Source: Marinilabilia salmonicolor JCM 21150
Lineage (GTDB): Bacteria > Bacteroidota > Bacteroidia > Bacteroidales > Marinilabiliaceae
Assembly (NCBI RefSeq): GCF_000259075.1
Contig: NZ_AJKI01000004.1
Coordinates: forward strand, 1-64,000
DNA: 64,000 nt
Direction: 5' to 3'
The notes beneath the pieces were generated by a model. It ran no database searches, was not told the DNA's origin, and saw nothing but the letters and a program-made list of their open reading frames with translations. Position numbers and translations under genes: made by a program. Positions 4,374-21,677 of the stretch are shown here, piece by piece. Position 1 is the first letter of the stretch, and every line of letters starts with the position of its first letter.

Positions 4374-4689
4374 TTACCGGAAACGAAAGTAAGTAAAATA
4401 TGGTTTAAGATGTAAAGGAACGTTTAAGAAAAGTTTGTTCTGCCTCACTTGATCTTATGTTGTTTTTTAGTTTGGTGGTGTTTGAAATAATCATTTTAGG
4501 TGTTTAAAAATGCCTTTTATCATGTCTGACATAAGGACAAAGATAAAAAATATTTAATGGGAATTCATTGTAAACAGGCACGGAAAATATGGTTTTTAAG
4601 GTTTATATGTAAAAAAAAGCAAAAAAAACTCTCTTTTTGTTTAGGGTGGGAGGATGTTTTTTCGTTTAAGAGATATCAAATATAGAAAC
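4374..4689. other. Divergent intergenic region between sigma and anti-sigma genes
   Basis: 316 bp of AT-rich DNA that must contain both divergent promoters. No clear TTG/TAnnTTTG Bacteroidota promoter, operator or hairpin could be assigned by eye. Confidence 0.5.
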
Positions 4690-5682
4690 ATGAGCAAGAA
4701 AGCTAATTTTAAAAGGTTACTAAGAAAATTCCTTGTCGGTTCCATTGATAATGCTGAATTGGAGGTTCTACATAAAGAATTAAAAGATTCACCTGAGAAT
4801 TTGGAATCGGCCAGGAAAAGTTATTTTGGAATTATAAAACTGGCCGGATTAGAAAGAAGTGCTGTCTGGTTGGATCAGAACAGAAAAGAAGTTCAACGGA
4901 AAATAGTCAGAAGAAGAAGATTTATTCAAGGATTCAAAGTTGCTGCATCATTGTTGGCAATAATTGGTCTTTCCGGAGTGCTCCATTTGAGTGGTATTTT
5001 TAATACTACTCCGGAGTGGAAGACTATTACTGCTGCCAATGGTGAAATTAGGGAGTTTTATCTCTCTGACAGTTCACGGATTTATCTTGCTCCTTCCAGT
5101 ACTTTAAAATTTCCGGTCAAATTCTCTAAGAATTCCAGGGTTGTTCATCTTAATGGTGAAGCGTACTTCGAGGTGAAAAAAGATACTAAAAGAAAATTTA
5201 TTGTTAAAACTTCATTTTCAGAAGTGAGTGTATTGGGTACATCTTTTAATGTTAGAGCATATCCTAATGAGAGATATGAAGAAACTTTATTGGTTGATGG
5301 TATTGTTTCCCTATCACACCTGGACGAAAAGAAAAATAAGGTTCATCAACCATACATCCTCGAACCTTTGGAAAAAGTTAAATACAATAAAGATGATAAT
5401 ACAACCGAACGAAGAATTATTGATTCAAAGGATAAGCCGGTATGGATGAATCATCGGATTGCCTTTTATAATCAGTCACTAAGCTTTGTCACCAAAGAGT
5501 TGGAACGATTTCATAATGTCACGATAGTTATTGTAGATGAGGAGGTGGGTGAGATAAAAATTAACGGGGAGTTCAACAATGAATCGCTGGAGGAAATATT
5601 GAATTCTTTAAAAATCCTATTGCCTATACGATATTCATACGATATCCAAAATCAGTTAATTCATATTTATTCTTTAAAATAA
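4690..5682 (+). CDS. FecR family anti-sigma factor
   Basis: About 330 aa from the ATG at 4690 (MSKKANFKRLL). An in-frame ATG at 4654 exists but adds an atypical leader. The N-terminal ~85 residues form the cytoplasmic sigma-binding region, followed by one transmembrane helix (FKVAASLLAIIGLSGVLHL). A periplasmic FecR domain follows (EWKTITAANGEIREFYLSDSSRIYLAPSS, LNGEAYFEVKKD, VSVLGTSFNVRAY), then a C-terminal DUF4974-like domain with an FYNQSLSFVTKELERFHNV segment. In this class the periplasmic part senses the loaded TonB receptor through its STN domain and releases the ECF sigma. The neighbouring SusC has that domain. Confidence 0.92.
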   Translation: MSKKANFKRLLRKFLVGSIDNAELEVLHKELKDSPENLESARKSYFGIIKLAGLERSAVWLDQNRKEVQRKIVRRRRFIQGFKVAASLLAIIGLSGVLHLSGIFNTTPEWKTITAANGEIREFYLSDSSRIYLAPSSTLKFPVKFSKNSRVVHLNGEAYFEVKKDTKRKFIVKTSFSEVSVLGTSFNVRAYPNERYEETLLVDGIVSLSHLDEKKNKVHQPYILEPLEKVKYNKDDNTTERRIIDSKDKPVWMNHRIAFYNQSLSFVTKELERFHNVTIVIVDEEVGEIKINGEFNNESLEEILNSLKILLPIRYSYDIQNQLIHIYSLK

Positions 5683-5924: not shown

Positions 5925-5932
5925 ATAAAAAA

Positions 5933-5982: not shown

Positions 5983-6014
5983 CAATTTTTAATTTGCTAA
6001 TTAACAACAAAGTT

Positions 6015-9000
6015 ATGGAGAAAAATCAATTTAATCCCTTATTTCTAACAAAAAAAAGGCGACTTAAGTCGTCGAAGGTTATGAGATTAATGTTTCTGTT
6101 TTTAGTGGCTAACTTATTTGTGGTCAATGCATCACAGGGTTTTTCGCAGCCTGCAAAGTTGACTGTTAATGAAAAAAACGTCACCCTGGAGGACGTGTTT
6201 AAAATAATTAAAGACGTTTCCGAGTATAATATCTTATATAAGTCTGGTGATTTGAATGTTGACAAGGTGGTTAATGTTGACGTAAAGGAAGTATCTGTTG
6301 AAGAGTTGCTTGCTGTGGTCCTTGCCGGGGAGGATGTAGAGTATATTATTCAAAATAATCAGATTATCATAAAAAAAGCCTTACCGTCAATAAGATCGGA
6401 TATTCAGGATGATATGTTTACCGTTACAGGAAAGGTGATTGATAAAGAGGGATTACCCATACCCGGAGTCAGTATTTCAGTGAAGGGAACTACCATAGGA
6501 ACAATTACCAACGGTAACGGTAATTATTCGTTAAACGTGCCGGAGGCAGATGTGGTTCTCGTTTTTTCATTCATTGGCATGCAGAGCCAGGAAATTGAAA
6601 TTAATGGAAGTTCCGAGATTAATGTAACATTGGAAGAAGATGCTGTTGGTTTGGAAGAGGTCGTAGTTGTGGGGTATGGGGCGCAGAAAAGAGAAAGCGT
6701 TGTTGGAGCTATCTCAACCATAGATCCGCAGGGACTGTCTGTTTCCAATGCTTCTGTTTCAACAGCTCTGGTAGGAAATCTTTCAGGTATTGTAGGGGTA
6801 ACACGTTCAGGTGAGCCCGGAAAAAATAGTGCTGCAGAATTCTATATTCGCGGGATATCCAGTTTTACCGGTAACAATAATCCTTTGGTCCTGGTTGATG
6901 GTATTGAGCGTGATTTGGATTTGGTGGATACCGAAGATATCAAGTCTTTCTCAATTCTGAAAGATGCATCAGCTTCAGCTGTTTATGGAGTCAGAGGTGC
7001 CAACGGGGTTATTCTTATTACCACCAAACGGGGAACAGAAGGAAAACCTAAAATAGATCTTCGTGCGGAGTCTGGTATTACTTCGCCTACTGTAATGCCT
7101 GATCTGGTTAATTCAGCTCAATTTGCTTCAATGTATAATGAGGCAAGTGGTACAAATTATTATTCGGAGGAGGATATTGAGAAGTATCGGAATGGAAGTG
7201 ATCCTGATCTTTTTCCAAGTGTGGACTGGATAGATGAGTTGTATCGTGATTTTGCCAGTAACCAGCGTGTAAATGTAAATGTTAGCGGAGGAAGTAATAT
7301 TGCTAAATATTATGTCTCAGGATCTTTTTATAATGAAAGTTCCATTTTTAAGGATGCCGGCGACAGGTATGATTATAATTCATCAATTAATTATAAGCGG
7401 TACAACTTCCGGGCTAATATGGATTTTTCATTGACAAAGACCACCAATCTTAATGTCAATCTTTCCAATCTTTATGAACAATCTTTTGGTCCGGGGCAAT
7501 CTACAGGAAATATATGGGGATATACGTTCGCGACATCTCCGAATGCTTTTCCTAAAGAATATTCTGACGGAACCATTTCTGCTCCCTCAACATCTTCTGG
7601 ATATAACCCATGGAACCTGCTTGTGCATTCCGGATACAGGGAACAATTCTGGAATTCTGCCCAATCTCTGATTGGATTAAAACAAGATTTAGAAGGTATT
7701 ACCCCGGGACTTAGTGCAGAAATTAAGTTTTCCTGGGACGCTTATACCTCTTCTCTTCAAGTAAGAAACAAAGAACCAAAACAATTTCATGCGAGTGGAA
7801 GAGATGAGGAAGGTAACCTGATTTTTGGTAACCCAATCTATGAAGGAAGTGAAACTCTTGGATATGATAGATCCAGTACAGGTACCCGAACCACATATCT
7901 TGAGGGATCACTCAATTACAGCCGCTTGTTTAATGATGTACACCGGATTGGTGGATTGTTTCTTTACAATCATAAGATCCATAATAATACGCATGCAGGT
8001 AATCAGGAAACTTCTCTTCCCTATAAACATCAGGGGATTGCAGCTCGCGTAACCTACGGATATAATGACACCTATTTCGCTGAATTTAATATGGGATACA
8101 ACGGTTCCGAGAACTTTGCCCCCGGACATCGTTTTGGGTTTTTCCCTGCAGGAGCAGCCGGTTGGTTAATCTCTAATGAAAACTGGTTTGCCGGTATTAA
8201 AAACACTATAAATAAATTAAAAGTTAAAGCTTCATACGGAAAAGTAGGTAATGATAATATTGGTGCCGATCGACGTTGGATCTATGAACCTACGATAGTT
8301 GGTGGTAATAACTGGAATTATGGAGAAACCGGAAATATCGGTGGAGGAAGTATCCGTATTGGTGATGTTGCCAACCCCAATGTCAGCTGGGAAGAAGTCG
8401 ATAAAACGAATGTCGGTATTGAACTTGGATTATTTAGTATTTTAGATCTTCAGGTAGATTATTTTTATGAGAAGCGCTCGGGTATTTTTATTCGAAGAGA
8501 CGGTTTGCCAGCAATTGTTGGTGTATCCAATGTTCCTTTTGTCAATATTGGTAAAGCAGAAAATAATGGTATTGATGCTTCTCTGGAGTATCGCCAGGAG
8601 GTAGGTGAGGTTATTCTTACAGGAAAAGGAACATTTACTTATACCAATAATAAATTGTTGGATAATGATCAACCCGACTGGGAGTATAAATATCAAAACC
8701 AAATCGGGAAAAATATTGGACAACCGTTTGGTCTGGTAGCACTTGGCTTGTTTGAAAGCGAGGAGCAAATTGAAAACAGCCCGAAACAAATGTTTGGACA
8801 GTATAGGGTTGGAGATGTTCAATATCAGGATATTAACGGTGATGGTGTCGTGGATTCTTATGACAGAATTGCCATCGGTTATCCCTCCATGCCCAAATTT
8901 GTATATGGTATTGGGGGTAATCTTCAATGGAAATCAATAGATGTCAATGTATTCTTCCAGGGGGTTGGGCAAACCTCATTCTTTGTAGGAGGTACAGCAA

Positions 9001-9401
9001 TGCATCCTTTCTCCAGTAACAATCTTGAGAGATCGTCCTTCCATGAGGAGCTTTATTATGAATCATGGAAAACATCCAATACATCTGAAGAAAATGATAA
9101 TGCCAAATACCCACGTCTAAGTTTAGGTGGAGGTCCCGGTAGTTCCAATAACTCCCAAAACTCTACATTTAATCAGCGGGATGGCAGTTTTATCAGACTC
9201 AAAAATGTTGAAATTGGTTATACATTTCCCAAACGGATCCTGGATAAAACCTTTTTGTCTTCAGGGAGAATCTATTTGAAAGGACATAATCTTTATACGT
9301 TTAGTTCTTTTGATTTATGGGATCCGGAAAAAGGTGGTGGTGACGGTTCAGGCTATCCGCCAAACCGGGTTATCTCACTAGGGTTTAGTACTAATTTTTA
9401 A
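6015..9401 (+). CDS. SusC/RagA-type TonB-linked outer-membrane transporter with STN domain
   Basis: About 1128 aa from the ATG at 6015; the frame also allows 5994. In order: a basic N-terminus with a hydrophobic signal (LMFLFLVANLFVVNASQGFSQ), an STN domain at about residues 45-125 (LTVNEKNVTLEDVFKIIKDV and following), a carboxypeptidase-regulatory-like domain at about 135-210 (VTGKVIDKEGLPIPGVSISVKGT), a TonB-box-like EEVVVVGYG, a plug domain (YIRGISSFTGNNNPLVLVDGIERDL, LKDASASAVYGVRGANGVILITTKRG), and a long beta-barrel ending in FSTNF. It imports oligosaccharides with the SusD partner encoded directly downstream. The STN domain signals to the FecR anti-sigma, so transport and induction are coupled. 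Confidence 0.95.
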   Translation: MEKNQFNPLFLTKKRRLKSSKVMRLMFLFLVANLFVVNASQGFSQPAKLTVNEKNVTLEDVFKIIKDVSEYNILYKSGDLNVDKVVNVDVKEVSVEELLAVVLAGEDVEYIIQNNQIIIKKALPSIRSDIQDDMFTVTGKVIDKEGLPIPGVSISVKGTTIGTITNGNGNYSLNVPEADVVLVFSFIGMQSQEIEINGSSEINVTLEEDAVGLEEVVVVGYGAQKRESVVGAISTIDPQGLSVSNASVSTALVGNLSGIVGVTRSGEPGKNSAAEFYIRGISSFTGNNNPLVLVDGIERDLDLVDTEDIKSFSILKDASASAVYGVRGANGVILITTKRGTEGKPKIDLRAESGITSPTVMPDLVNSAQFASMYNEASGTNYYSEEDIEKYRNGSDPDLFPSVDWIDELYRDFASNQRVNVNVSGGSNIAKYYVSGSFYNESSIFKDAGDRYDYNSSINYKRYNFRANMDFSLTKTTNLNVNLSNLYEQSFGPGQSTGNIWGYTFATSPNAFPKEYSDGTISAPSTSSGYNPWNLLVHSGYREQFWNSAQSLIGLKQDLEGITPGLSAEIKFSWDAYTSSLQVRNKEPKQFHASGRDEEGNLIFGNPIYEGSETLGYDRSSTGTRTTYLEGSLNYSRLFNDVHRIGGLFLYNHKIHNNTHAGNQETSLPYKHQGIAARVTYGYNDTYFAEFNMGYNGSENFAPGHRFGFFPAGAAGWLISNENWFAGIKNTINKLKVKASYGKVGNDNIGADRRWIYEPTIVGGNNWNYGETGNIGGGSIRIGDVANPNVSWEEVDKTNVGIELGLFSILDLQVDYFYEKRSGIFIRRDGLPAIVGVSNVPFVNIGKAENNGIDASLEYRQEVGEVILTGKGTFTYTNNKLLDNDQPDWEYKYQNQIGKNIGQPFGLVALGLFESEEQIENSPKQMFGQYRVGDVQYQDINGDGVVDSYDRIAIGYPSMPKFVYGIGGNLQWKSIDVNVFFQGVGQTSFFVGGTAMHPFSSNNLERSSFHEELYYESWKTSNTSEENDNAKYPRLSLGGGPGSSNNSQNSTFNQRDGSFIRLKNVEIGYTFPKRILDKTFLSSGRIYLKGHNLYTFSSFDLWDPEKGGGDGSGYPPNRVISLGFSTNF

Positions 9402-9421
9402 CACCTAAAACAGACTAGAAT

Positions 9422-11296
9422 ATGAAACTATTGATAAATAAAACGATAAGTATTTTTTTAGGAGTTTTACTCTTAGGGTTACTTCCTGCATGTGAGGATT
9501 TTTTAGATCGTCAGGAAGATGAGGCCATGACTTTTGAAAAGATATGGAAAAACCGTTCCACAGTCAGAGAATATTGGAGAAACACCATGAGTTTTCTTCC
9601 TGACGATGCCAATGATTTTAATTTTTCTCCCTGGTTAGGAGCCTCGGATGAAGGGACAGTAACATACAATCGCGATTTCAGGTGGATTAACTTTGGCTCC
9701 TGGAATCCAACTTCTGTTCCTTACGAGAGAATGACTCACTATTACAAAGGGATTCGTGAATGTAATGTGTTTTTAGCAAATGTTGATCGCACCAGCGATC
9801 CACTTGTTTCAGAGGAGGAGATTCAGGAATGGAAGGTTCAAACCCGCTTTGCAAGAGCTTATTACTACTTTTTGATGATGCGTAATTATGGACCTGTCTT
9901 CCTGATAGGAGATGAGGAGCTTGATTTTACTGCCACGACCGAGCAGCTTGAAAGACCTCGTAATACCTGGGACGAATGTGTCAATTACGTTGTTAGCGAA
10001 ATGGATGATCTGGCCGGAAAATTACCTGAAGAATGGCAGTCAAGCAGTGACTATGGGCTGGCAACCAGGGGCGCAGCTTTGGCGGTTATTTCTCGTCTGA
10101 AGTTGTATAGTGCAAGAACCCTTTTTAACGGCAATGAATTGTATTCCGGAATAACAAATCCTGATGGTACAAGACTTTTTCCTGCATTTAATGGAGAAAA
10201 ATGGGCCGATGCGGCTCATGCTGCTAAAGCTGTGATAGATTTGGGGATCTATGAATTGAACAGAGAAGGTAATGGAAATCCTTATGAAGACTGGATGGGA
10301 ATAACTAATGAACATTGGAATAGCGAAATAATCTGGTCAACCGGGTACAAGAGTCGTTATTCAATGGGGGTTCATACTGTTCCCACCGGGGTCCCAGGAA
10401 CTGCTTATGGAGGTGTCGGACCTACTCAGCAACAAGTAGATGCTTATGCTATGCAAAATGGCAGATATCCGATTACGGGTTATGACGAGGATGGTACTCC
10501 CATTGTAGATAATACCTCCGGTTATCCTGCAGATGAGTTTGCAAAAGAACAATTTACGAATCCGGCATTCGACGCCGGTTACAATACTGCCTCGGATGAC
10601 AATGAGAATATGTGGCCTGTGCTTTTTAAAGACCGTGAGCCCCGTTTCTACATGACCGTATTCTGGAGTGACAGCTATTGGAAACATGGGGACAGACATA
10701 CTCTGATCTCTTTTGCTAAAGGTGGTAACGGTAATAAGAGTCATGATTATCCTAAGTCAGGATATATTATGCACCGGTTCTATGATCATTCCCTGCCATC
10801 TCATTCCGGTCAATGGGGAAATATTGTTTTTCCAACTTTCCGACTTGGTGAGATATATCTGAACTTTATTGAAGCGGTTCTTGAATGTAAGAAGAATGGA
10901 ATTTCAATTCCGGTGGCTTATGAGACAGAAGCTATGAGCCTTTGGGCTGATTTGCGGGATAGAGCAGGAATGTCTTCCATAACAGACGCCTATCCCGGAG
11001 CATCAACTGAGCAACTTATAGACCTGATTCGCAAAGAACGTCGTGTGGAACTGGCTTTCGAAAATCACAGGTACTTTGATACACGCACCTGGATGATTGC
11101 AGAAGAAACAGATGGAGGACCTATGTATGGTATGAATATCAATGCGGAAGCAGAATCAGGAACTGATACTCCTGATTTGTTTTGGCAGCGAAGTATTTTT
11201 GAAACACGTGTGTTTCAACCCAATCATTACTTGTATCCGTTTTCACAGCGTGAAATAGATAGAAATTCTGAACTGATACAAAATTACGGCTGGTAA
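9422..11296 (+). CDS. SusD/RagB family nutrient-binding outer-membrane lipoprotein
   Basis: 624 aa. The lipoprotein signal MKLLINKTISIFLGVLLLG ends in the lipobox LLPAC. The N-terminal TPR-like helices include TRFARAYYYFLMMRNYGPVFLIG, and the C-terminal SusD signature LIDLIRKERRVELAFENHRYFDTRTW precedes the closing segment FSQREIDRNSELIQNYGW, typical of the family. It starts 20 bp after the susC stop, so the two are co-transcribed. The protein caps the SusC barrel and binds glycan. Confidence 0.95.
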   Translation: MKLLINKTISIFLGVLLLGLLPACEDFLDRQEDEAMTFEKIWKNRSTVREYWRNTMSFLPDDANDFNFSPWLGASDEGTVTYNRDFRWINFGSWNPTSVPYERMTHYYKGIRECNVFLANVDRTSDPLVSEEEIQEWKVQTRFARAYYYFLMMRNYGPVFLIGDEELDFTATTEQLERPRNTWDECVNYVVSEMDDLAGKLPEEWQSSSDYGLATRGAALAVISRLKLYSARTLFNGNELYSGITNPDGTRLFPAFNGEKWADAAHAAKAVIDLGIYELNREGNGNPYEDWMGITNEHWNSEIIWSTGYKSRYSMGVHTVPTGVPGTAYGGVGPTQQQVDAYAMQNGRYPITGYDEDGTPIVDNTSGYPADEFAKEQFTNPAFDAGYNTASDDNENMWPVLFKDREPRFYMTVFWSDSYWKHGDRHTLISFAKGGNGNKSHDYPKSGYIMHRFYDHSLPSHSGQWGNIVFPTFRLGEIYLNFIEAVLECKKNGISIPVAYETEAMSLWADLRDRAGMSSITDAYPGASTEQLIDLIRKERRVELAFENHRYFDTRTWMIAEETDGGPMYGMNINAEAESGTDTPDLFWQRSIFETRVFQPNHYLYPFSQREIDRNSELIQNYGW

Positions 11297-11453
11297 TTAT
11301 GTTTTCAGATGGAGGATTGAGTGGAAATATTAGTCCCTCTATGGTTCGTTTTTGAGATGAATTGTTTCCTTCATCAAAGAGAAAAATGATGGAAGTTTCA
11401 AATGGAAGTTTTTTGAGCTTCCATCAGGCCAATAACCATAAAAAAATATACCA

Positions 11454-12836
11454 ATGAAAAATAAAATAAAGTTGTTCACTCTTTTTCTCGTGGCAGGAGT
11501 AGCTTTTAGTGCCTGTGAAGATTACAGAGATCAATTTCTGAATGAATTTGACACGATAAACTACTTTAAAGACAGTGGAGAAGTCTCAATTGTTGCCTAT
11601 AATGTAGGTGAAGACACTAATTATCAGTTGACTGTAAATAAAGGCGGTTCTGAAATAGAGTCAGAAAGTTCGGTTCAGGTCACTACAATGACTGAACCGG
11701 TATTACAAATATATAACGAAGAGAATTATACTGATTATGTTCTTTTGCCCGACAATGCTTATCAATTTGATACGCAGACGGTGACATTGACTGAAGAATA
11801 TCCATGGCAGGAAATTGAAGTTGTCCTGAAACCGGATGTCATCATAGGACTTGATGAGATATCCGGAACATATGTATTGCCGTTGGAATTGATTAATTCT
11901 GAAGATTCTATTAATTCTGAGAAAAGGTATTCTTTTTTGGCACCCAAAATTATGACACCCACTGTATTTTTTCCTGAATCATTGGGAGAGGATGTTATTT
12001 TTACAGCAGAGGATGAACAGCAAATTTCATTTATATTTCCGGTTGCAATCCCCGCGGATCTGGATAATAAATGGGACTTGAATTGCTCTTTGGAGATTGA
12101 TGCAACTCTTGTTGAGCAATATAATCAGACTTATGGTGCGAACTATGCCCTGCTTCCATCGGATGCTTACACGATGGAAAATGTGGCAACCATTCTGTCG
12201 GGAGAACAACAGACAGAAGTTGAAGTTGTCATTGACAGAACTTCTTTGCTTTTTGGCAATTATGTTTTGCCGTTGAAACTTGCAGATTGTTCTAAACCTG
12301 AATTTGAGGTTGACGAAGAACGGGGTTCTTTTATAGTGCCTGTGTCATACACACCGCCTGTTCCTGCTGAGATTCCTCTTACTGCTGATATGGTTTCATC
12401 AAACGCAGACGAGCCCTATGAGGGACCTATTGAAGACTTGGTGGATGGAGATATTCAGACTTTCTTCCATTCGGTATGGAGTATCGATGTGTTCTCTCCC
12501 TACGGCCATTATATCGACATTGAACTTGAGGAAGACATAAATATAATGCAGTTTGCATACGTTACGCGGCATAATAATGCCAATGGAGCTCCCAAACATA
12601 TTATCGTTTACACCAGTAGCGACGGACAAAACTGGAATCAACTGACTGAAATTACCAGGGGACTTCCTCAAGGTGTGGAGGAGACATATACTTCTCTTGT
12701 TTATTCCACTGAAGAGAACTTCAGGTACGTTCGAATCTCCGTAATGGAAAGTGCAGGAGGTATGATGAATGAACAGGAAAGTGCATTCTTTTCTTTATCT
12801 GAATTGCAATTCTTTGGTGAATTGTTTGTAGAATAA
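11454..12836 (+). CDS. DUF1735 / F5/8 type C (discoidin) surface lipoprotein
   Basis: 460 aa with lipobox VAFSAC. Two tandem BT_3987-like DUF1735 domains occupy the first ~300 residues, visible as repeated motifs: YTDYVLLPDNAYQFD...VTLTEEYPWQEIEVVLKPD, and YGANYALLPSDAYTMENVATILSGEQQTEVEVVID. A galactose-binding F5/8C/CBM32-like domain covers about 310-455 (EPYEGPIEDLVDGDIQTFFHSVW, NFRYVRISV). Such proteins follow susCD in many loci and act as surface glycan-binding proteins. It is co-directional with susCD, and a terminator follows at 12852. Confidence 0.85.
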   Translation: MKNKIKLFTLFLVAGVAFSACEDYRDQFLNEFDTINYFKDSGEVSIVAYNVGEDTNYQLTVNKGGSEIESESSVQVTTMTEPVLQIYNEENYTDYVLLPDNAYQFDTQTVTLTEEYPWQEIEVVLKPDVIIGLDEISGTYVLPLELINSEDSINSEKRYSFLAPKIMTPTVFFPESLGEDVIFTAEDEQQISFIFPVAIPADLDNKWDLNCSLEIDATLVEQYNQTYGANYALLPSDAYTMENVATILSGEQQTEVEVVIDRTSLLFGNYVLPLKLADCSKPEFEVDEERGSFIVPVSYTPPVPAEIPLTADMVSSNADEPYEGPIEDLVDGDIQTFFHSVWSIDVFSPYGHYIDIELEEDINIMQFAYVTRHNNANGAPKHIIVYTSSDGQNWNQLTEITRGLPQGVEETYTSLVYSTEENFRYVRISVMESAGGMMNEQESAFFSLSELQFFGELFVE

Positions 12837-12851
12837 GAGTTCTCAGCTATT

Positions 12852-12897
12852 CCGGCACAGGAATGTTTTTCTGATTTCCTGTGTCGGATTATTTTTC
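12852..12897 (+). terminator. Strong intrinsic terminator between the surface lipoprotein and M60 genes
   Basis: The stem CCGGCACAGGAA / TTTCCTGTGTCGG (12852-12863 with about 12875-12887) is followed by ATTATTTTTCTC. The in-frame GTG at 12881 lies inside the descending arm, which argues that the downstream gene really starts at 12935. It may allow the upstream transporter/binding genes to be expressed at a higher level than the enzymes. Confidence 0.75.
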
Positions 12898-12934
12898 TCA
12901 CCCAAAGAACGCCTCTAACTACATACTTACCGAT

Positions 12935-15820
12935 ATGTTAAAAATTTCTTGTTATTTTGTTTTTTCCTTTGTTGCATTAATATTGGGATTAAACTCCTGC
13001 ACAGATGAAAGTCAGGCTGCAGATATTGATGTGTTGGAAATTGATATTGAAAATGCTCAGGTGGCATTTCCGGCTGAATCATCCTCCAGACTGATAAGTG
13101 TAACTACTGAAGCGAATGATCTATCATTTGAGAATACCGTGGATTGGTTAAATGTTAGCTATGATAATGTTCGCAAAGCTATTGCTGTTTCTGTTCTGGA
13201 CAATGTATCGCTGCAATCCAGAACTGCAAGTTTAATTGTTGCCCATAAAAATTTAAAAGATACCATTGAGGTGGTTCAGTTTGGTGTAGAGCCGGAAATC
13301 ATCCTCAGTAATAAGCAGGTAAATGTCGATTTTAAGGCACAACGCATTGAGGTGCAGTTGCTGTCAAATGTGGATGTGGCATCCGCTCCAAAGGCAGCAT
13401 GGATAAATACAGCAGACGACCTTAAAAGTGTGAGTCTTGAACCTCTTGAATATTCTTTTTCTTTCGATGTGGATGCACTTGATAGTAAGTCAGATCGCAA
13501 AGGATATATTTATTTTGATCATCTTGAAGGTGAAATGCAGGACAGTATTGCTGTAGTTCAATCGCTGGTCACCGACGAAGGCTATAATCCTGTCGGAACC
13601 AACTCTTTTGAAAAAGATGAAAAACTAAACATTATTTCCGCTACACTTACTCCATCAGATAAATATCAGCCAGGTGCAAATATTCAAAATTCTATAGATG
13701 GAGATTTAAGTTCTATTTATCATTCTCCCTGGGTGGGATTGCAGGATGGCACCAGTATCTCTTTTGAATTTACACTGAATCCTGAAGATGCTGACATAAT
13801 CAATTACATAGTGCTTCATCCGCGAGTAACCGGGATAAATGGGGTGATAAAAACCGCATCAATATGGGTTTCAACAAAGTCCAATGCTGATTATGTGAAG
13901 ATGGCTGATATTGAAGCTCCCAGAAATAATAACCCGGTAACCGTGTTCTTTGATTCCCCGGTGATTGAGCCTCAAAGAATTAAGATTGTTGTGACTGATG
14001 CTTATTCACAGGATGACAATTATTATGTTTCTCTGGCTGAATTTGAATGTTATGAAAGTAAGTCCATGAGTTCGTTGGAAAATGATCAGGTATTCTTTAC
14101 CGATGAGACTTTTTCGGAACTGGAACCGGGTTTTTCAATGCAGGACCTTTCAGCGATCTCTAATCCTTTTCTTCAGAATATTGCAGCCTATCTGCTCAGT
14201 GAGAGGTATGATGATGAGTATCGGGTTCAAAGATATGAACCTTTTCAGGATGTTTGGGATCTGGCAGAAGAGTTAAAAATCAGCCAATACAGCCAATATG
14301 AAAATCCCACAGGTATGTATTTTGAAGAAGGAGAGGAAGCTATTGTTTTTGTGGGAGATCCTATGGGACGTAAAGTGAATTTGAAAGTAAGAGACTTTGG
14401 ACCCGCGGGGGATGATTATACTTATGCTTTGCGAAAAGGTTTAAATATTCTTTCTATGAAGGGACAGGGAAATGCCTATGTCAGTTACTATACCCCCGAC
14501 TATCAAACGGCCGAGTCTGTAAAAATCCATATTGCTTCAGGACAGGTCAATGGCTATTTCGATATTTCCCGCCATACCAATGAGGATGGTAAGAAATTGC
14601 TGGATAATGCAGTAAGTGAAATAATGGATATTAAAGGTAAAAGAGTTCAGTTGGCTTACAGCGTTAACTCTCTCAGTAATTATAGTTATAGTCAACTACA
14701 TGATTTGACAATTGTTTATGACAGTATTGTCGGTTCCCAACAAACGATGATGGGGCTGAGAAAATATGACAGATTACCTAAGAATCATATTTTAGGCCGT
14801 GTCATATGGGATGGTTATATGCATAAAGACAGCTGGGGAGCTGCTTTTCATGACAATACAATGGAGACTGTGGCCAATCCGCAAAAATTAAAAAACAATA
14901 ATTGGGGTGTAGCTCATGAATTCGGACATGTTAATCAAACTCATCCTGGCTTTATGTGGGTCGGAACCACGGAAGTAACGAATAATATTTTCTCCTTGTG
15001 GAGTCAATTTTGCTTCACCCCCCATAATATGCGTCTTGAGCACGAAGTGGTGGGAGGAGAAATTGGTGGCCGGTTTAATGCTTATTTTCAAAACGCATTC
15101 ATAAAAAATCAGGAGTGGGGCTTACAAGCCGGCCCTGATGCCACTTATGGGGCAAATGGTGATGGCGTTTGGAGCGGAGACGTGTTTGTGGCTCTTGCGC
15201 CCATGTGGCAGCTGCAGCTGTTTTTCCATGTGGCTGGTGAAGGGAACGAATGGCATCGGCCTTATTTTTATGCAGACGTTTTTGAAGCAGTAAGGAATAC
15301 GGACGAAAGCAGTCTTTCACATGGACAAGTGCAAATGAATTTTGTAAAGAATGTTTGCGATGCCGTTCAATACGATCTCACTGACTTCTTTACCAGTATT
15401 GGGATGTTGAAGGAGGTAGATAAAGTTTTTAATGATTATACCAGTGCAAGAAAGGCCATTACCAGTTCAATGATTGATGAAACGATAAATTACATTAGTC
15501 GTTATCCAAAACCGGAACTTAATAATGTGTTGAAATATATTTCGGTCAACAGCTATAAAACTTATCAAAACAAGTTGCCTGTTTCGGGTAGTTATAAAAC
15601 CGGTGTTCAGGTTTTAGAAGACCAACTAAAAATTGAAGGTTCTGATTGGAAAAATGTGATTGTTTATGAAACCTATTCTGAAGAAAGGTTGATTAACATT
15701 ACGATGGTCGGCACAGGGGATTCCTCAAATTCCTTTACAGTAGTGCCTTATCCGGGAGAAGCAACAAGGGTGGAAGCAGTTGCGTTTGACGGTGCCCGCA
15801 CTCTTGTTTTTGGAGATTAA
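12935..15820 (+). CDS. M60 (enhancin-like) zinc metallopeptidase with BACON and discoidin domains
   Basis: 961 aa from the ATG at 12935, with lipobox LGLNSC. Two BACON-like beta-sandwich domains lie at about residues 25-120 and 120-215, an F5/8C-like carbohydrate-binding domain at about 230-370, and then the M60 catalytic domain. Its zinc motif HEFGH is at residues 661-665, within AHEFGHVNQTH, with a downstream glutamate at 680 (TTEVTNN), as in the gluzincin pattern HExxH(8-28)E. Characterised M60 proteins cleave O-glycosylated mucin-type glycoproteins, often recognising GalNAc. The neighbouring GH109 enzymes and hexosamine-kinase-like protein fit that substrate. The lipoprotein signal places it in the outer membrane, probably at the cell surface. 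Confidence 0.92.
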   Translation: MLKISCYFVFSFVALILGLNSCTDESQAADIDVLEIDIENAQVAFPAESSSRLISVTTEANDLSFENTVDWLNVSYDNVRKAIAVSVLDNVSLQSRTASLIVAHKNLKDTIEVVQFGVEPEIILSNKQVNVDFKAQRIEVQLLSNVDVASAPKAAWINTADDLKSVSLEPLEYSFSFDVDALDSKSDRKGYIYFDHLEGEMQDSIAVVQSLVTDEGYNPVGTNSFEKDEKLNIISATLTPSDKYQPGANIQNSIDGDLSSIYHSPWVGLQDGTSISFEFTLNPEDADIINYIVLHPRVTGINGVIKTASIWVSTKSNADYVKMADIEAPRNNNPVTVFFDSPVIEPQRIKIVVTDAYSQDDNYYVSLAEFECYESKSMSSLENDQVFFTDETFSELEPGFSMQDLSAISNPFLQNIAAYLLSERYDDEYRVQRYEPFQDVWDLAEELKISQYSQYENPTGMYFEEGEEAIVFVGDPMGRKVNLKVRDFGPAGDDYTYALRKGLNILSMKGQGNAYVSYYTPDYQTAESVKIHIASGQVNGYFDISRHTNEDGKKLLDNAVSEIMDIKGKRVQLAYSVNSLSNYSYSQLHDLTIVYDSIVGSQQTMMGLRKYDRLPKNHILGRVIWDGYMHKDSWGAAFHDNTMETVANPQKLKNNNWGVAHEFGHVNQTHPGFMWVGTTEVTNNIFSLWSQFCFTPHNMRLEHEVVGGEIGGRFNAYFQNAFIKNQEWGLQAGPDATYGANGDGVWSGDVFVALAPMWQLQLFFHVAGEGNEWHRPYFYADVFEAVRNTDESSLSHGQVQMNFVKNVCDAVQYDLTDFFTSIGMLKEVDKVFNDYTSARKAITSSMIDETINYISRYPKPELNNVLKYISVNSYKTYQNKLPVSGSYKTGVQVLEDQLKIEGSDWKNVIVYETYSEERLINITMVGTGDSSNSFTVVPYPGEATRVEAVAFDGARTLVFGD

Positions 15821-16060
15821 ATTCCAGCAATTATTATCTGGTTTTTTCAGTGTTTTTCAGAAGGTCTTTTAACCTGCCTTATTTATGAATTATCGGAATA
15901 GATTATTAGTGAATAATGCAGGATAGGTTCCGGCTTCATATGATTTTTTAAAAACATGGTTCAACAGCTCCTTTGCATGTGGTTATCCAATGGGAAGACA
16001 TGTAATATGGTTGGTAGATGGGTTGTATTATTCAGGAAATAATTAAAAATAAAAAAATAG

Positions 16061-17389
16061 ATGGATATGCATAAAAGATATTTGATGCGATTGATAGGGA
16101 TGAGTATCCTTACATTGTTGGTTTCGTCCAGTCAATGTACAAATGAGAAATCTTTTTCCGGGAATACGGATGTAAACCTGGAAGGAGGCGTTGCCATACC
16201 AACAGCCGGCAACAGTTGGTTTATTAATCAGCCATTTAAAAGCCATCAGTATATAACAGACAATGGGATTGAACACTGGGCCGGTCATGGTGATACGATT
16301 CGAACTTACTTTCATGCCGGGTCGGCAAATTCATTGTCATTGGGAATACGTGCCAGAGCCAGGGGAGAGGCTTCGTCTGTTGTGGTTGAAGTAGGCGGTC
16401 AGGCTACCGAAATAAAGGTGACCAGTGCAGAGCTTACTGATCTTCCTGTTGGGGAATTTAAACTTAACGAGGCTGGTTATCAGGAGGTGGATATTATTTC
16501 ATCTCCGGAAAACCAAAATGCTGAACTGGATATTAGTCATATTATAGTTGCGGGCGATTTTAAGGAATTAGACTATGTTAAAGATGATTTTTACTGGGGA
16601 CGTCGTGGCCCGTCAGTCCATCTGAGATACAATATTCCGGAGGAAGCTGCGCCGGTTCGCTATTTCTATAATGAGATTACTGTACCCGAAGGAGAGGATG
16701 TTCAAGGTTCCTATTTTATGGCCAACGGATTTGGACAGGGCTATATGGGAATACAGGTAAATTCGGAAGTCGAACGTCGTATCCTGTTTTCCGTATGGAG
16801 TCCTTACCATTCCGACAATCCGGATGAGATACCGGAGCATATGCGCATAAAACTTTTGAAAAAAGGAGATGATGTGCATGCCGGGAAATTTGGCAATGAA
16901 GGTTCAGGAGGCCAGAGTTATAAAAAATTCATGTGGAAAGCCGGTGTTACATATGGTTTTTTGCTTAAAGGAGAGCCCACAGAAAGCAATTCAACTCAAT
17001 TCACAGCCTGGTTCTTTGATCCTGAAACAGACCAGTGGTCATTGATTGCCAGCTTTGAAAGGCCTGAGACCAGTACTTATCTTACCGGATTACACTCTTT
17101 TCTTGAAAACTTTAGAACAGAAACCGGTTTCCTAAGTCGAAAGGCTTATTATACAAATCAATGGGTGTTTGATACCGGAGAAAAGTGGCATCAACTTACC
17201 GGAGCGGTCTTTACTGCTGATGCCACAGCCCGGAAGAAAGCCCGTCTGGATTATGCCGGTGGTGCTGAAGGAGGAAAGTTCTTTATGAAGAATTGTGGTT
17301 TCTTTAATTCCGGAGTGGAAATAGATGCAGAATTTTTTCGTGAACCAGTCGGGAAAAGGCCCCGGATAAACTTTGAGGAATTACCATAA
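16061..17389 (+). CDS. DUF5077/DUF3472 domain lipoprotein
   Basis: 442 aa. The N-terminal signal reaches an atypical lipobox (SSSQC at about residue 26, with Gln rather than Gly/Ala before Cys). Residues ~45-170 match the DUF5077 jelly-roll region (WFINQPFKSHQYITDNGIEHW). Residues ~190-430 form the DUF3472 domain (VRYFYNEITVPEGEDVQGSYFMANGFGQGYMGIQVNSE, RRILFSVWSPY). These proteins are frequent accessory members of Bacteroidota carbohydrate loci and probably bind or act on glycans, but no activity can be assigned from sequence. It lies 240 bp after M60 in the same direction. Confidence 0.75.
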   Translation: MDMHKRYLMRLIGMSILTLLVSSSQCTNEKSFSGNTDVNLEGGVAIPTAGNSWFINQPFKSHQYITDNGIEHWAGHGDTIRTYFHAGSANSLSLGIRARARGEASSVVVEVGGQATEIKVTSAELTDLPVGEFKLNEAGYQEVDIISSPENQNAELDISHIIVAGDFKELDYVKDDFYWGRRGPSVHLRYNIPEEAAPVRYFYNEITVPEGEDVQGSYFMANGFGQGYMGIQVNSEVERRILFSVWSPYHSDNPDEIPEHMRIKLLKKGDDVHAGKFGNEGSGGQSYKKFMWKAGVTYGFLLKGEPTESNSTQFTAWFFDPETDQWSLIASFERPETSTYLTGLHSFLENFRTETGFLSRKAYYTNQWVFDTGEKWHQLTGAVFTADATARKKARLDYAGGAEGGKFFMKNCGFFNSGVEIDAEFFREPVGKRPRINFEELP

Positions 17390-17445
17390 ATCCAGCAGGT
17401 TAGAATAAGTATTTAATGTTTAATTTTTATCATAAAACACAAAGA

Positions 17446-18843
17446 ATGAGAGCGTACAGAATGATCCGTTTATTGGTATTTGCTGTTGTTGTATCTACCG
17501 CAGCAGCCTGCCAAATGACAGGTGGAGAACAACAATCCACCACATTTACTCCAAAGGAAGTTTTTACTACACCTGAGCGACCCGCAGGTCAGGCAGATGT
17601 ACTGGAACTTCGTGCCGAACCTATTGATACCGTTCGCATGGCCATTATTGGGCTGGGAATGCGGGGCTCTGGGGCTGTTTACCGCTACACCAATATTGAA
17701 GGCGCTAAAGTGGTGGCTATTGCTGATGTGGTGCCCGAAAAAGTTAAGAGAGCCAACGAGACGCTTGTTAAAAACGGCCGGCCCGCAGCTGATGAATACA
17801 TTACGGAAGAAGGTTGGAAAGAGATTTGTGAGCGCGATGACATAGATCTGGTTTATGTTACCACTCACTGGAGTCTGCATACTCCAATTGCCGTTTATGC
17901 GATGGAGCATGGAAAACACGTTGCTACCGAAGTTCCGGCCGCTCTCACCATTGATGAATGTTGGCAACTTGTGAATACGGCTGAACGCACCCGTCGTCAT
18001 TGTATGATGCTGGAAAATTGCAACTACGACTTCTTTGAAATGGCGACCCTCAACATGGCTCAGCAGGGGCTTCTTGGTGAAATTGTTCATGCCGAAGGAG
18101 CTTATATTCATGACTTGCGCTCCCTTAACTTCAACGAAAACGGCTATTGGAATATGTGGCGTCTGGAACATTTTAAGGAAAGAGATGCCAATCTTTATCC
18201 TACACATGGTTTTGGCCCCATCGCACATGCATTGAATCTGCATCGCGGTGACAAGATGAACTATCTGGTATCGGTATCGAGCAATCAGTTTGGGATGACA
18301 AAATATGCAAAAGATAAGTTTGGTGAAGATTCGGAATATGCTCAGCAAGAGTACATAAAAGGGGACATGAATACCTCAATTATTAAAACAGCCAAAGGCA
18401 AAACCATCATGTTGCAGCACGATGTGACAAGCCCGCGGCCATACAGTCGCATTCACATGCTCAGTGGAACAAAAGGTTTTGTCCTGAAATATCCACAACG
18501 TGGCATTGCACTGGACCCTAATGCTCACAGTTTCCTTTCGGACGAGGAAATGGAGGAGATGTTGGCTCAATATGAGCATCCTATTACTAAAGAAGTGGGT
18601 GAGAAAGCACGCGAGGTTGGCGGTCACGGTGGCATGGATTTTATTATGGATTACCGGCTGATTTATTGCCTCCGCAACGGCTTACCACTCGATCAGGACG
18701 TGTATGATGCTGCTGAATGGTCCAGCATTGTTCATCTTTCCGAAGAATCTGTGAAAAACAACGGAATGCCCGTTCAGGTTCCTGATTTTACCAGAGGCGC
18801 GTGGGATAAGCTGGATGAGGTAACTTATTATTCCGTTGATTAG
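17446..18843 (+). CDS. GH109-type Gfo/Idh/MocA glycosidase (predicted alpha-N-acetylgalactosaminidase), lipoprotein
   Basis: About 465 aa from the ATG at 17446, with lipobox STAAAC. The Rossmann motif GLGMRG follows the strand MAIIG, then VVAIADVVPEKV and the family segment YPTHGFGPIAHALNLHRGDKMNYLVSVSS, which marks the GH109 branch of Gfo/Idh/MocA proteins. Known GH109 enzymes use a tightly bound NAD+ to hydrolyse alpha-GalNAc by an oxidation-elimination mechanism. The signal peptide puts this copy in the periplasm or on the surface. A paralogue without a signal peptide follows. Activity on GalNAc is inferred from family and neighbours. Confidence 0.85.
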   Translation: MRAYRMIRLLVFAVVVSTAAACQMTGGEQQSTTFTPKEVFTTPERPAGQADVLELRAEPIDTVRMAIIGLGMRGSGAVYRYTNIEGAKVVAIADVVPEKVKRANETLVKNGRPAADEYITEEGWKEICERDDIDLVYVTTHWSLHTPIAVYAMEHGKHVATEVPAALTIDECWQLVNTAERTRRHCMMLENCNYDFFEMATLNMAQQGLLGEIVHAEGAYIHDLRSLNFNENGYWNMWRLEHFKERDANLYPTHGFGPIAHALNLHRGDKMNYLVSVSSNQFGMTKYAKDKFGEDSEYAQQEYIKGDMNTSIIKTAKGKTIMLQHDVTSPRPYSRIHMLSGTKGFVLKYPQRGIALDPNAHSFLSDEEMEEMLAQYEHPITKEVGEKAREVGGHGGMDFIMDYRLIYCLRNGLPLDQDVYDAAEWSSIVHLSEESVKNNGMPVQVPDFTRGAWDKLDEVTYYSVD

Positions 18844-18844
18844 C

Positions 18845-18951
18845 TAGTATCTGTCCATAAAGTCCCGTTTACTGCGTTACGCCATTAGCGGAACCTTCTG
18901 AACAGACACAGCGAACTTGAACAACTTTGCTTAGTTTATAGACAGATACTA
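18845..18951 (+). repeat. MITE-like element, copy 2 (short form)
   Basis: 107 bp with near-perfect terminal inverted repeats, TAGTATCTGTCCATAAA and TTTATAGACAGATACTA. The ends match the elements at 5734 and 59648, but the interior is different and shorter. It begins 2 bp after the GH109 stop codon. Confidence 0.75.
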
Positions 18952-18997
18952 AATAAAAAGAACAAGAATACCAATCACTATTTTTGTTATTATCTCG

Positions 18998-19034
18998 GGC
19001 CGGAAAATTTGTATTAAATTTTCCGGCCTGTTTC
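18998..19034 (+). terminator. Intrinsic terminator between the two GH109-like genes
   Basis: A perfect 13-bp stem GGCCGGAAAATTT / AAATTTTCCGGCC (18998-19010 and 19016-19028) with a 5-nt loop, followed by TGTTTC. The weak U-tract makes termination efficiency uncertain. Confidence 0.6.
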
Positions 19035-19110
19035 AAAACAAATTAACTTCTACACATCCCTCAGCCCTAAAAGTAGAACTACAAAACCAGTAAAATAGCC
19101 CAACATTTAT

Positions 19111-20499
19111 TTGAAGACTGGTTTTTCGGAAAGTAAAATAGCACAAAGTTGCGGAAAAGCGTATAGACAGAGAATGGCCCACATAAGGATGAATGTTGAG
19201 AGAACAGCAGAAAATACAAGACATGTATTGGAGTTGAGGTGTGAACCACTGAAGAAGGTAAGAATTGGCTTTATCGGACTGGGGATGCGGGTCCCCAGAG
19301 CTATTCGGCGTTTTTTATTCATTGATGGAGCCGAAATTGGGGCTCTTTGTGATGTGGTGCCTGAGAATCTGGAGAACATCCGGACAATTTTAAAAAACAA
19401 TAATCAGCCCCCAGTGCCGGAATATTCCGGCGAAGAAGACTGGAGGAAAGTTTGTGAAAGAGATGATCTGGACCTCATATATATATCAACTCATTACAAT
19501 CTGCATACACCAATAGCAGTTTATGCGATGCAGTGTGGTAAGCATGTTGCGGTAGAAGTGCCGGCTGCCACCACTATCGATGAATCGTGGTTACTGGTGG
19601 AAACAGCGGAACAAACCCGCCGACATTGCCTTCAGCTTGAGAATTGCATCTATGGACGATTTGAATTGGCTACATTCAACATGTCTCAGAAAGGATTGCT
19701 GGGAGAACTGGTACATGGTGAAGGCGCATATATTCATGATTTGCGCCATTTGCTCTTCGCTACAGAAAATGGCTACTGGAAAATGTGGCGGCTCAACTAC
19801 CATGAGAAATACAATGGAAATTTATATCCAACCCATGGTTTGGGGCCTGTGTGTCACAGCATGAATATACATCGGGGCGATCGTCTGGATTATATGGTTT
19901 CCATGTCGTCGGGCCAATTTGGCCTTACCGATTATGCGCAGAGAAATTTTGGTTCAGACTCTGATTTTGCCAATCGAAAATACGCCAATGGTGACATCAA
20001 TACCTCCCTTATTCATACAGCTAATGGCAAAACTATTATGCTTCAGCATAATATAGTAAGTCCCAGACCATACAGTCGAATTCATATGCTAAGCGGAACA
20101 AGGGGAATGGTACAGCAATGGCCCGAACCCGGAATCACCCTGGATAAAAACGGTTCCGACTTTCTGTCTAAGGAAGCAATGGCTTTATTGCTCAAAGAAT
20201 ATGAACACCCCCTGATAAAGAAGTGGGCCCCCGTGATTGAGAAAAATGCGGAAAACGATGCTATTACCAAAAACAACGGAATGGACTACCTGATGGATCA
20301 GAGACTTATTTATTGCCTTCAAAACGGGCTGCCACCCGATACGGATGTCTATGATGCTGCCGAATGGTCGGCCATCATGGAGTTGTCGGCACGTTCAGCC
20401 AACAACAGAAGTTCGACCGTGAATATCCCCGATTTTACCCGTGGTGCCTGGCAAATTTTGAATCGGGTTCGTTATTATCAGAATAAGGAGGATCAATGA
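19111..20499 (+). CDS. Second GH109-like Gfo/Idh/MocA oxidoreductase, no signal peptide
   Basis: 462 aa, clearly paralogous to the 17446 gene along its length (LYPTHGLGPVCHSMNIHRGDRLDYMVSMSSGQFG; SRIHMLSGTRGM). There is no hydrophobic signal, so a cytoplasmic location is likely. The start could also be 19174 (MAHIRMN). The dinucleotide-binding loop reads GLGMRVP, so the third glycine of GxGxxG is valine here while the paralogue keeps it. That may alter NAD binding. Together with the kinase 89 bp downstream it could handle imported GalNAc-containing glycans, or it may have diverged to another sugar. Confidence 0.8.
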   Translation: MKTGFSESKIAQSCGKAYRQRMAHIRMNVERTAENTRHVLELRCEPLKKVRIGFIGLGMRVPRAIRRFLFIDGAEIGALCDVVPENLENIRTILKNNNQPPVPEYSGEEDWRKVCERDDLDLIYISTHYNLHTPIAVYAMQCGKHVAVEVPAATTIDESWLLVETAEQTRRHCLQLENCIYGRFELATFNMSQKGLLGELVHGEGAYIHDLRHLLFATENGYWKMWRLNYHEKYNGNLYPTHGLGPVCHSMNIHRGDRLDYMVSMSSGQFGLTDYAQRNFGSDSDFANRKYANGDINTSLIHTANGKTIMLQHNIVSPRPYSRIHMLSGTRGMVQQWPEPGITLDKNGSDFLSKEAMALLLKEYEHPLIKKWAPVIEKNAENDAITKNNGMDYLMDQRLIYCLQNGLPPDTDVYDAAEWSAIMELSARSANNRSSTVNIPDFTRGAWQILNRVRYYQNKEDQ

Positions 20500-20588
20500 T
20501 TAGATTTTTTATATAACAGAAGTGGAGAGGAGTAATAAACAAATCATACTACCCCGCATATTTTTTAATTTTACCAAACAATAATTTT

Positions 20589-21677
20589 ATGACACCAGAA
20601 CTAATAACCAACCAGTTTTCCATTAATGGTACGGTTGCAACCATCAAGCCATTTGGTAATGGACTTATTAATACTACCTATAAAGTTCGGACAAGCGAGA
20701 GTGATGCACCCAACTACCTGTTGCAAATTGTTAATCATCATATTTTCAAGAATGTCTCTGAACTGACTCGTAATATAGAGCGGGTTACCAGTCACATTCG
20801 TGGAAAATTGGAAGAGCAGGAAGCCCATGATATTGATCGACGCGTTTTAACCCCTGTTAAGACCAATGATGGCAAGGGGTTTTTCAAAGACGAGGAGGAC
20901 AATTACTGGCGTATGTTCCTTTTTATTGAAGAGGCTCATTCTTACGACCAACTGGCCAGTGTTAAACAGGCTGAGGCGGGAGGGAGAGCCTTTGGGCAAT
21001 TTCAAAAGCTGGTTTCCGATTTGCCCGGAGAACCACTTTACCCAGTGATTCCCGGATTTCATGACACCGAGATGCGCATAAAAAATTTTAAAGAACGTGT
21101 AAAAGAAAATCCGGTTGGACGATTGGAGGACGTTCAACAAGATGTGGATTTCTTACTTGAACGGTCAGATGAATACAAAAAAATAATACAGATGGGACGA
21201 GAAGGGAAGATTCCACAACGGATTGTTCATCAGGATACAAAGTTTAATAATGTGCTGCTGGATGAAAATGATGACGTTCTTTGTGTGATTGACCTGGATA
21301 CAGTAATGCCCGGTTATGTCTGCTATGACATAGGTGATGCCATTCGTAATGGTGCGAATACCGGTAAAGAGGATGATCCCAATTTGGACAATGTGGGGAT
21401 TAATATGGAGCTATTTGAAGGCTTTATGAAAGGTTTTCTTCAGGAGACCAACGGTATATTGACCAGAGAAGAAAAAGAAACTCTCGCTTTTGGTGCAAAA
21501 CTGCTTACTTATGAGCAGGCGGTCCGGTTTATGGATGATTTCCTGGATGGTGATAAATATTACAAAACCGAAAGCGTTGAGCACAATCTTATCAGAGCAA
21601 GAGCTCAAATTAAACTGCTCAAGAGTATGGAAGAGAAGTTTGATCGTATGGAGGAAATCGTGAGTCGTTATATATAA
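20589..21677 (+). CDS. APH-fold kinase, N-acetylhexosamine 1-kinase-like
   Basis: 362 aa. The aminoglycoside-phosphotransferase fold shows an N-lobe glycine segment IKPFGNGLINTTYKV, a Brenner-type catalytic loop HQDTKFNN (H-x-D-x-x-x-x-N) and the metal-binding DLDTV equivalent of DFG. The family includes N-acetylhexosamine 1-kinase (NahK), which phosphorylates GlcNAc/GalNAc at C1. Antibiotic kinases share the fold but are shorter and differ around the substrate loop. Placement after two GH109 genes supports GalNAc/GlcNAc phosphorylation. The substrate is inferred. Confidence 0.75.
   Translation: MTPELITNQFSINGTVATIKPFGNGLINTTYKVRTSESDAPNYLLQIVNHHIFKNVSELTRNIERVTSHIRGKLEEQEAHDIDRRVLTPVKTNDGKGFFKDEEDNYWRMFLFIEEAHSYDQLASVKQAEAGGRAFGQFQKLVSDLPGEPLYPVIPGFHDTEMRIKNFKERVKENPVGRLEDVQQDVDFLLERSDEYKKIIQMGREGKIPQRIVHQDTKFNNVLLDENDDVLCVIDLDTVMPGYVCYDIGDAIRNGANTGKEDDPNLDNVGINMELFEGFMKGFLQETNGILTREEKETLAFGAKLLTYEQAVRFMDDFLDGDKYYKTESVEHNLIRARAQIKLLKSMEEKFDRMEEIVSRYI

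Follow-up and report, generated by a model that had tools for sequence, protein, structure and literature searches.

A predicted O-GalNAc glycoprotein locus in Marinilabilia salmonicolor carries a second GH109-family protein that lacks the GGHGG histidine

The stretch of DNA analysed here (the window, 64,000 nucleotides) comprises positions 1-64000 of contig C4 in the genome of Marinilabilia salmonicolor JCM 21150 (G000). Near its start a run of plus-strand genes (4654-21677) encodes a SusC/SusD pair, an M60-family peptidase, two proteins of glycoside hydrolase family 109 (GH109-A and GH109-B) and a kinase of the N-acetylhexosamine 1-kinase (NahK) type, with the gene for an extracytoplasmic function (ECF) sigma factor divergent from the run. 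We consider it likely that this is a locus of the polysaccharide-utilization locus (PUL) type for glycoproteins bearing O-linked N-acetylgalactosamine (GalNAc), that it works like BT4240-50 of Bacteroides thetaiotaomicron, and that GH109-B is a cytosolic paralogue without the loop histidine rather than a second glycosidase. From sequence and by analogy we infer the following flow: a surface M60 peptidase would cleave the glycoprotein adjacent to O-glycans, the glycopeptides would be bound and imported by the DUF1735/F5-8C, SusD and SusC proteins, exported GH109-A would remove alpha-GalNAc, and the cytosolic kinase would make GalNAc-1-phosphate. The most likely place of GH109-B is in this cytosolic GalNAc-phosphate branch, where, as a member of the Gfo/Idh/MocA proteins, it would bind a ligand or catalyse a different reaction.

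The comparison with BT4240-50 was made through its published description and, for the M60 protein, through PDB scores. As described in the available part of PMC11992087, where all three of these proteins were assayed, BT4244 is an M60 peptidase, BT4243 is a GH109 enzyme active on GalNAc-Ser and p-nitrophenyl (pNP)-alpha-GalNAc, and the BT4240 kinase, required for growth on GalNAc, is about 275-fold better on GalNAc than on N-acetylglucosamine (GlcNAc). On that description the two loci share an ECF/anti-sigma pair, SusC, SusD, a DUF1735+CBM32 binder, M60, GH109 and a NahK-type GalNAc 1-kinase, in the same order as judged by locus-tag number. The window locus differs in adding a DUF3472 protein and a second GH109 protein that lacks both the histidine and a signal peptide. 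The sequence-only reading of this DNA had proposed one pathway from glycopeptide to GalNAc-1-phosphate: the M60 protein, exported GH109-A and the kinase behind SusCD fit that logic, at the level of prediction, and GH109-B as one of its enzymes does not.

PMC11992087 (2025), in the part available, gives the combined two operons as currently known only in B. thetaiotaomicron, B. faecis and B. caccae. The peptidase plus GalNAc-kinase design, reported only from these three gut Bacteroides, also occurs in a Marinilabiliaceae-type genus, of which two species carry it. In the second species (G004) all ten genes, from ECF sigma factor to kinase, were found with their order kept and 92-96% amino acid identity; among 19 genomes, some of them assembled in small contigs, M60 and kinase occurred in one locus only in these two. 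Ratios of nonsynonymous to synonymous substitution (dN/dS, Nei-Gojobori) between the two species were 0.21 for the DUF3472 gene and between 0.05 and 0.12 for the other nine. Elsewhere in the genus, the kinase was not found in G002 or G003, and G001, one of five genus members, carries GH109-A-like genes at other sites, once adjoining a DUF3472 gene behind a different SusC (L069). A related set without the kinase, SusC-SusD-F5/8C-M60-DUF3472-GH2-GH109, was seen in G015 (L172).

The M60 protein matched PF13402 at 137 bits, and the HEFGH..E motif named in the sequence-only reading is present in the translation, satisfying HExxH...E. The program's list of open reading frames (ORFs) starts this gene at GTG 12881, in the same frame as the gene used here, whose product appeared lipoprotein-like at the N-terminus by eye. 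Its PDB matches were BcM60K (302 bits), 7sci (239), BcM60C (234), BcM60F (222), 5kd2 (161) and 5kd5 (158). We take 5kd2 and 5kd5 to be BT4244, in which case the window protein is closer to BcM60K than to its counterpart in BT4240-50. The PDB search lists 5kd8 under a sequence identical to 5kd5, and 5KD8 is named BT4244 in the accessible text of PMC13355702. The likeness to BcM60K of Bacteroides caccae (9pl7, PMC13355702) covers the catalytic domain and the HExxH...E motif; the window protein has BACON and F5/8C domains in addition, the solved BcM60K chain being a truncated construct. By hand mapping counted from E664, the position of BcM60K Phe629 is Tyr in the window protein, like Tyr620 of BcM60M as given in the part of PMC13355702 available. 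These matches place it in the O-glycopeptidase group, and cleavage beside O-glycans is predicted.

Relatives of the M60 protein (E≤1e-30) were found in 17 of 393 genomes of the order. The kinase was present in 15 of these 17, as against 174 of all 393 at the same threshold (Fisher p = 2e-4, uncorrected for relatedness). PF13402 gave no match in the two Bacteroides genomes reached by locus.

The kinase matched Pfam APH (PF01636) at 59 bits and is similar to NahK over its full length. At E≤0.01 the PDB search found three different sequences (E 2.8e-76 to 2.1e-75), each of them annotated as an N-acetylhexosamine 1-kinase or a '1-phosphate kinase'. The NahK proteins of bifidobacteria (4ocj, 4wh1) have HxDTKxNN and IDLDT motifs in common with the window kinase, which reads HQDTKFNN at the first, as the sequence-only reading had noted. 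The window kinase differs from these in its placement in a SusCD/M60 locus, where the role of N-acetylhexosamine 1-kinase is predicted. We also considered a homoserine or choline kinase, the outcome that the sequence-only reading had named as telling against it: Pfam Choline_kinase scored 19.8 bits, under its cut-off of 29, and the PDB matches were all hexosamine kinases; on sequence similarity we rejected this assignment.

Three kinase copies were found in G000 (on contigs C4, C10 and C40) and three in G004, compared with one reported for B. thetaiotaomicron in the literature available in part. Two other genomes of the order sample had two copies and none other had three; the search scored up to five kinase and two M60 candidates per genome, so the copy numbers given are minimum values. 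The C10 copy belongs to a row with GH2, GH109, SusD and SusC genes, with GH95 and GH43 genes past an antiporter gene. The C40 copy has GH20, GH95, sulfatase and GH2 genes on its own strand, and on the other strand genes for a major facilitator superfamily (MFS) transporter and a glucosamine-6-phosphate (GlcN-6-P) deaminase-like protein. Contig C53 carries a BNR_3/BNR_2 gene, a candidate sialidase, adjoining a GH20 gene. On C31 lies a nucleotidyltransferase gene like those that adjoin the kinase elsewhere, with the other genes of the route not found within about 7 kb. A PF01704 (UDPGP) scan of G000 gave no match, and the control was silent as well. Three loci probably share the use of GalNAc in this organism.

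These copies bear on the target. The sequence-only reading had taken the lack of sialidase, fucosidase and sulfatase genes in the window as a sign that the target may be simple Tn-type glycans. GH95, GH20, GH2 and sulfatase genes lie within 10 kb of one or other further kinase copy, so a window free of fucosidase and sulfatase does not show a Tn-only diet; the genome also holds the BNR/sialidase-type gene. BcM60K, moreover, is reported in the available part of PMC13355702 to cleave Tn, core 1 and core 2, and sialylated core 1 less well. The proposal of a simple Tn-type target is thus weak.

The same gene context gives some room to a broader substrate range, in which the kinase and the locus would serve GalNAc or GlcNAc from other polymers (glycosaminoglycan, algal or bacterial) as much as from O-glycoproteins. 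Full growth on chondroitin sulphate likewise requires the BT4240 kinase, according to the accessible text of PMC11992087, and that of PMC12269599 judges chondroitin to be the target of a PUL in B. caccae that encodes peptidases and a GH109 enzyme active as an alpha/beta-N-acetylgalactosaminidase. Both the DUF3472 gene and the kinase copies occur with sulfatases and GH95. However, the M60 protein of the locus itself belongs to the O-glycopeptidase group, and neither a lyase nor a sulfatase gene is present there (ORF list and Pfam). We regard this broader range as unlikely, although it is the strongest of the alternatives.

Both GH109 proteins matched GH109_C (PF21252), at 178 and 174 bits. GH109-A combines GFO_IDH_MocA and GH109_C domains, retains the GGHGG loop and can be aligned along almost all of its mature sequence with AmGH109A (6t2b) and the 2ixa enzyme; it looks like an ordinary exported GH109 and is a candidate alpha-N-acetylgalactosaminidase. 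GH109-B differs from both enzymes in its loop, which has Lys-Asn, in an altered Rossmann motif and in the lack of an export signal. Among 46 GH109-family sequences (49 found, three rows under 400 residues dropped) the loop His was kept in all 44 others and lost only in GH109-B and its G004 orthologue. At 70 columns near-invariant in the others, GH109-B keeps 64 and changes six: the third Rossmann Gly to Val, the loop Gly-His to Lys-Asn, the following Gly to Asn, a Leu to Met and an Ala to Ile. The Gly after Lys-Asn is still Gly in G004. Counted along the PDB alignment, the equivalents of Tyr226 and His259 of AmGH109A are kept and that of His404 is not.

GH109-B has no signal peptide, as judged from start codons, frame and hydrophobicity. 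The ORFs that the sequence-only reading had placed on the plus strand all exist, but the start of GH109-B is most likely ATG 19174, not TTG 19111, because the longer frame is interrupted by an indel when compared with G004. The G004 orthologue has no earlier in-frame start codon, and the extended frame in the window lacks hydrophobic character. That reading's 'two GH109-type enzymes' therefore stands for family membership and for one exported GH109; GH109-B, without export signal and catalytic His, is probably not the enzyme assumed.

Could both proteins nevertheless be alpha-N-acetylgalactosaminidases, acting in sequence or on different substrates, with another residue of GH109-B replacing the GGHGG His? 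The 64 conserved positions and the Tyr226 and His259 equivalents speak for this (roles from the available part of PMC10755693), as does the fold: an AlphaFold2 (AF2) model of GH109-B with a predicted local distance difference test score (pLDDT) of 85 fitted 6t2b best, at a template modelling (TM) score of 0.89. The missing residue is the difficulty. The acting residues proposed for AmGH109A in PMC10755693, as far as that text is available, are His404 (for the C3 redox step), Tyr226 and His259; its reference 22, by title, assigns the catalytic acid-base to the GGHGG loop, and the two sources, as seen in excerpt and title, therefore disagree on the exact role of His404. Lys-Asn in the loop of all six members of the clade described below, with no room for a signal peptide, also argues against this explanation, which we hold to be improbable. 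Least probable of all is that GH109-B is a redundant, decaying copy without function: the catalytic residue, a Rossmann Gly and the signal peptide are lost and its branch is long, but its dN/dS of 0.116 (kinase, 0.115) shows that it is under purifying selection, and the same Lys-Asn change recurs in six sequences from four families within one clade.

Broader sampling, by a search across the order and by fetching stretches, gave 48 GH109 sequences, of which nine lacked the loop His and one more kept the His but not the loop. The search matched 147 of 393 genomes, and loops were viewed in the returned loci and in 20 stretches chosen for rank or short frames; this set partly overlaps the set of 46, and the tree holds 87 distinct sequences. 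Six of the nine (the window protein, G004, G372, G384, G243 and G140) had Lys-Asn in the loop and no room for a signal peptide. These six KN-type sequences, from four families, formed one clade with 100/100 support. Seven alignment columns, including one insertion, set them apart: the six agree on a residue there, and no fewer than 31 of the 33 canonical sequences have a different one or a gap. The other three (G410, G117 and G328) fell outside the KN clade, G328 on a very long branch. Domain annotation would label the clade GH109, although the catalytic His is lacking. No report of it was found in the literature searched, a search that covered open-access papers.

The neighbours of KN-type genes point in part to amino sugar metabolism. 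In G372 a nucleotidyltransferase gene (cut) is followed by a canonical GH109 gene, the KN-type gene and a gene for a divergent NagB-like protein; G384 has a kinase gene (cut), then a nucleotidyltransferase gene, the KN-type gene and again the divergent NagB-like gene. The NagB-like protein matched GlcN-6-P deaminases in the PDB at E 3e-17; the nucleotidyltransferase passes PF00483 and is closest, among PDB entries, to the uncharacterized 3pnn. We propose tentatively, at somewhat less than an even chance, that the KN clade is an undescribed cytosolic GH109 clade of Bacteroidota that has left glycoside hydrolysis, and that GH109-B acts on or senses GalNAc, GalNAc-1-phosphate or UDP-GalNAc in salvage with the kinase, a 3pnn-type nucleotidyltransferase and the NagB-like protein.

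Two further observations touch this subject. A compact cluster in Labilibaculum euxinus (L151) and Plebeiobacterium marinum (L157) holds the same NagB-like protein (64-65%) together with kinase, MFS, nucleotidyltransferase, GlmM-like and GalE-like genes, the last two named from N-terminal sequence only. It is a candidate cytosolic GalNAc route, and its gene set suggests the steps GalNAc to GalNAc-1-phosphate, UDP-GalNAc, UDP-GlcNAc, GlcNAc-1-phosphate and GlcN-6-P. Additional signal-less GH109-family proteins outside the KN clade, some with GGHGG loops lost or changed, were seen at L216, L217, L218, L219, L220 and L223.

Several results weigh against a BT4240-50-like locus with a salvage role for GH109-B. 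The GH2 beta-1,3-galactosidase and MFS transporter of BT4240-50, as published in the part available, are absent from the window locus; genes of both types are present at other kinase loci of G000. Of the 17 genomes in the order sample with an M60 relative, several of them fragmented, G000 alone has M60 and kinase in one locus. We also viewed named kinase neighbourhoods (the best 80 loci, up to 10 kb on each side and many shorter, with no B. thetaiotaomicron among them): a relative of the window M60 was found in none of the 80. GH109 matched in 14 of them, L150 being a 28% partial match and L149 and L161 belonging to a distant branch. The NagB-like protein has no Pfam match, and NCBIfam deaminase models matched it below their cut-offs. 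No aminosugar gene was recognised near the KN-type genes of G243 and G140, and G372 has a KN-type gene with no kinase found. The positions that GH109-B retains make an altered glycosidase activity possible.

The sequence-only reading passed over two genes of the locus, one for the BT_3987_N/DUF1735-type protein with an F5/8C domain and one for the DUF5077+DUF3472 protein. The latter gains a GalNAc context here, as does GH109-B. DUF3472 matched in 12 of 100 relatives, with 18 matches in total, of which 15 were full-length; the count of 15 leaves out one partial match (G037:C86) and two weak ones (G082). A GH109 match lay within 10 kb at 12 of the 15 full-length sites, or at 10 of 15 without two doubtful cases, G052:60105 (GH109 6.4 kb off, past a FecR/SusC pair) and G012:C243 (GH109 a 39% fragment). 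At the negative sites (G023:C1, G030:C7 and G012:C426) about 8-10 kb was viewed on each side, the last with only 2.7 kb on one side. This proximity is far from chance by a random-placement estimate for 11 or 12 of 15, uncorrected for relatedness and with sites clustered in few genera. The neighbouring GH109s belong to more than one branch.

The sole full-length solved relative of the DUF3472 protein is 4qhw, which is uncharacterized, and the literature found, available in part, gives no function for DUF3472, DUF5077, PF16871 or PF11958. A pattern scan of viral contigs returned no relatives. A single-sequence model had a pLDDT of 42 and was set aside.

Table 1. Features of the candidate O-GalNAc glycoprotein locus in the window.
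Feature	Position	Strand	Basis
ECF sigma factor (sigma70 r2, r4)	3810..4373	-	Pfam; 95% amino acid identity in G004
FecR-type anti-sigma factor	4654..5682	+	Pfam FecR + FecR_C
SusC/RagA TonB-linked transporter, STN + CarbopepD_reg_2	5994..9401	+	Pfam; TIGR04056 1006 bits
SusD-like lipoprotein	9422..11296	+	Pfam; top PDB match 7bll 'SusD homolog'
Candidate surface glycan-binding lipoprotein, BT_3987_N (DUF1735-type) + F5/8 type C	11454..12836	+	Pfam
M60 O-glycopeptidase candidate, BACON + F5/8C + M60-like_N	12935..15820	+	Pfam; BcM60K 9pl7 302 bits; HEFGH...E
DUF5077 + DUF3472 lipoprotein-like protein	16061..17389	+	Pfam 352 bits; PDB 4qhw 356 bits
GH109-A, alpha-N-acetylgalactosaminidase candidate	17416..18843	+	Lipobox-like N-terminus, intact GGHGG loop
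Possible MITE-like element, imperfect 22-nt inverted ends (86%)	18840..18956
Perfect 13-bp hairpin between GH109-A and GH109-B, possible terminator	18998..19028
GH109-B, non-canonical GH109	19174..20499	+	TKNNG for GGHGG; Rossmann third Gly to Val; no signal peptide
NahK-type N-acetylhexosamine 1-kinase (APH family)	20589..21677	+	Pfam; PDB matches; motifs

Pfam confirmed that the locus lies downstream of an STN-bearing SusC and a FecR/ECF pair, as the sequence-only reading had it (Table 1), and the position of the pair suggests that ECF control of the locus is possible. The repeat resembling a miniature inverted-repeat transposable element (MITE) and the hairpin between the two GH109 genes suggest that GH109-B and the kinase may be transcribed as a separate unit. 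The 149 bp before the GH109-B start are 96% identical to G004. An RNA leader was considered there and rejected, its structure being no better than that of shuffled sequences (z 0.08). A scan of ten intergenic gaps for Bacteroidetes -33/-7 promoter pairs found no pair and two -7-type boxes only. The end sequence of the MITE-like element recurs at 5909-5930, with no inverted pair around this 5.9 kb copy; pieces of the repeat were also seen between FecR and SusC (about 5731-5931) and at L066, L070 and L146.

Beyond the kinase, a betaine/choline/carnitine transporter (BCCT) gene lies on the opposite strand (22106-23617). The sole Rfam match above gathering in the window was a tRNA at 251-314 (35 bits), uncalled by ARAGORN and possibly degenerate. 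A second PUL (46828-61081) encodes a hybrid two-component regulator, GH2, GH88-like, SusC-like and SusD-like proteins and an alginate_lyase-domain protein, the SusC and SusD assignments being by sequence alone. A HipA-type protein with HipA_C and HipA N-terminal domains is encoded at 62132-63385.

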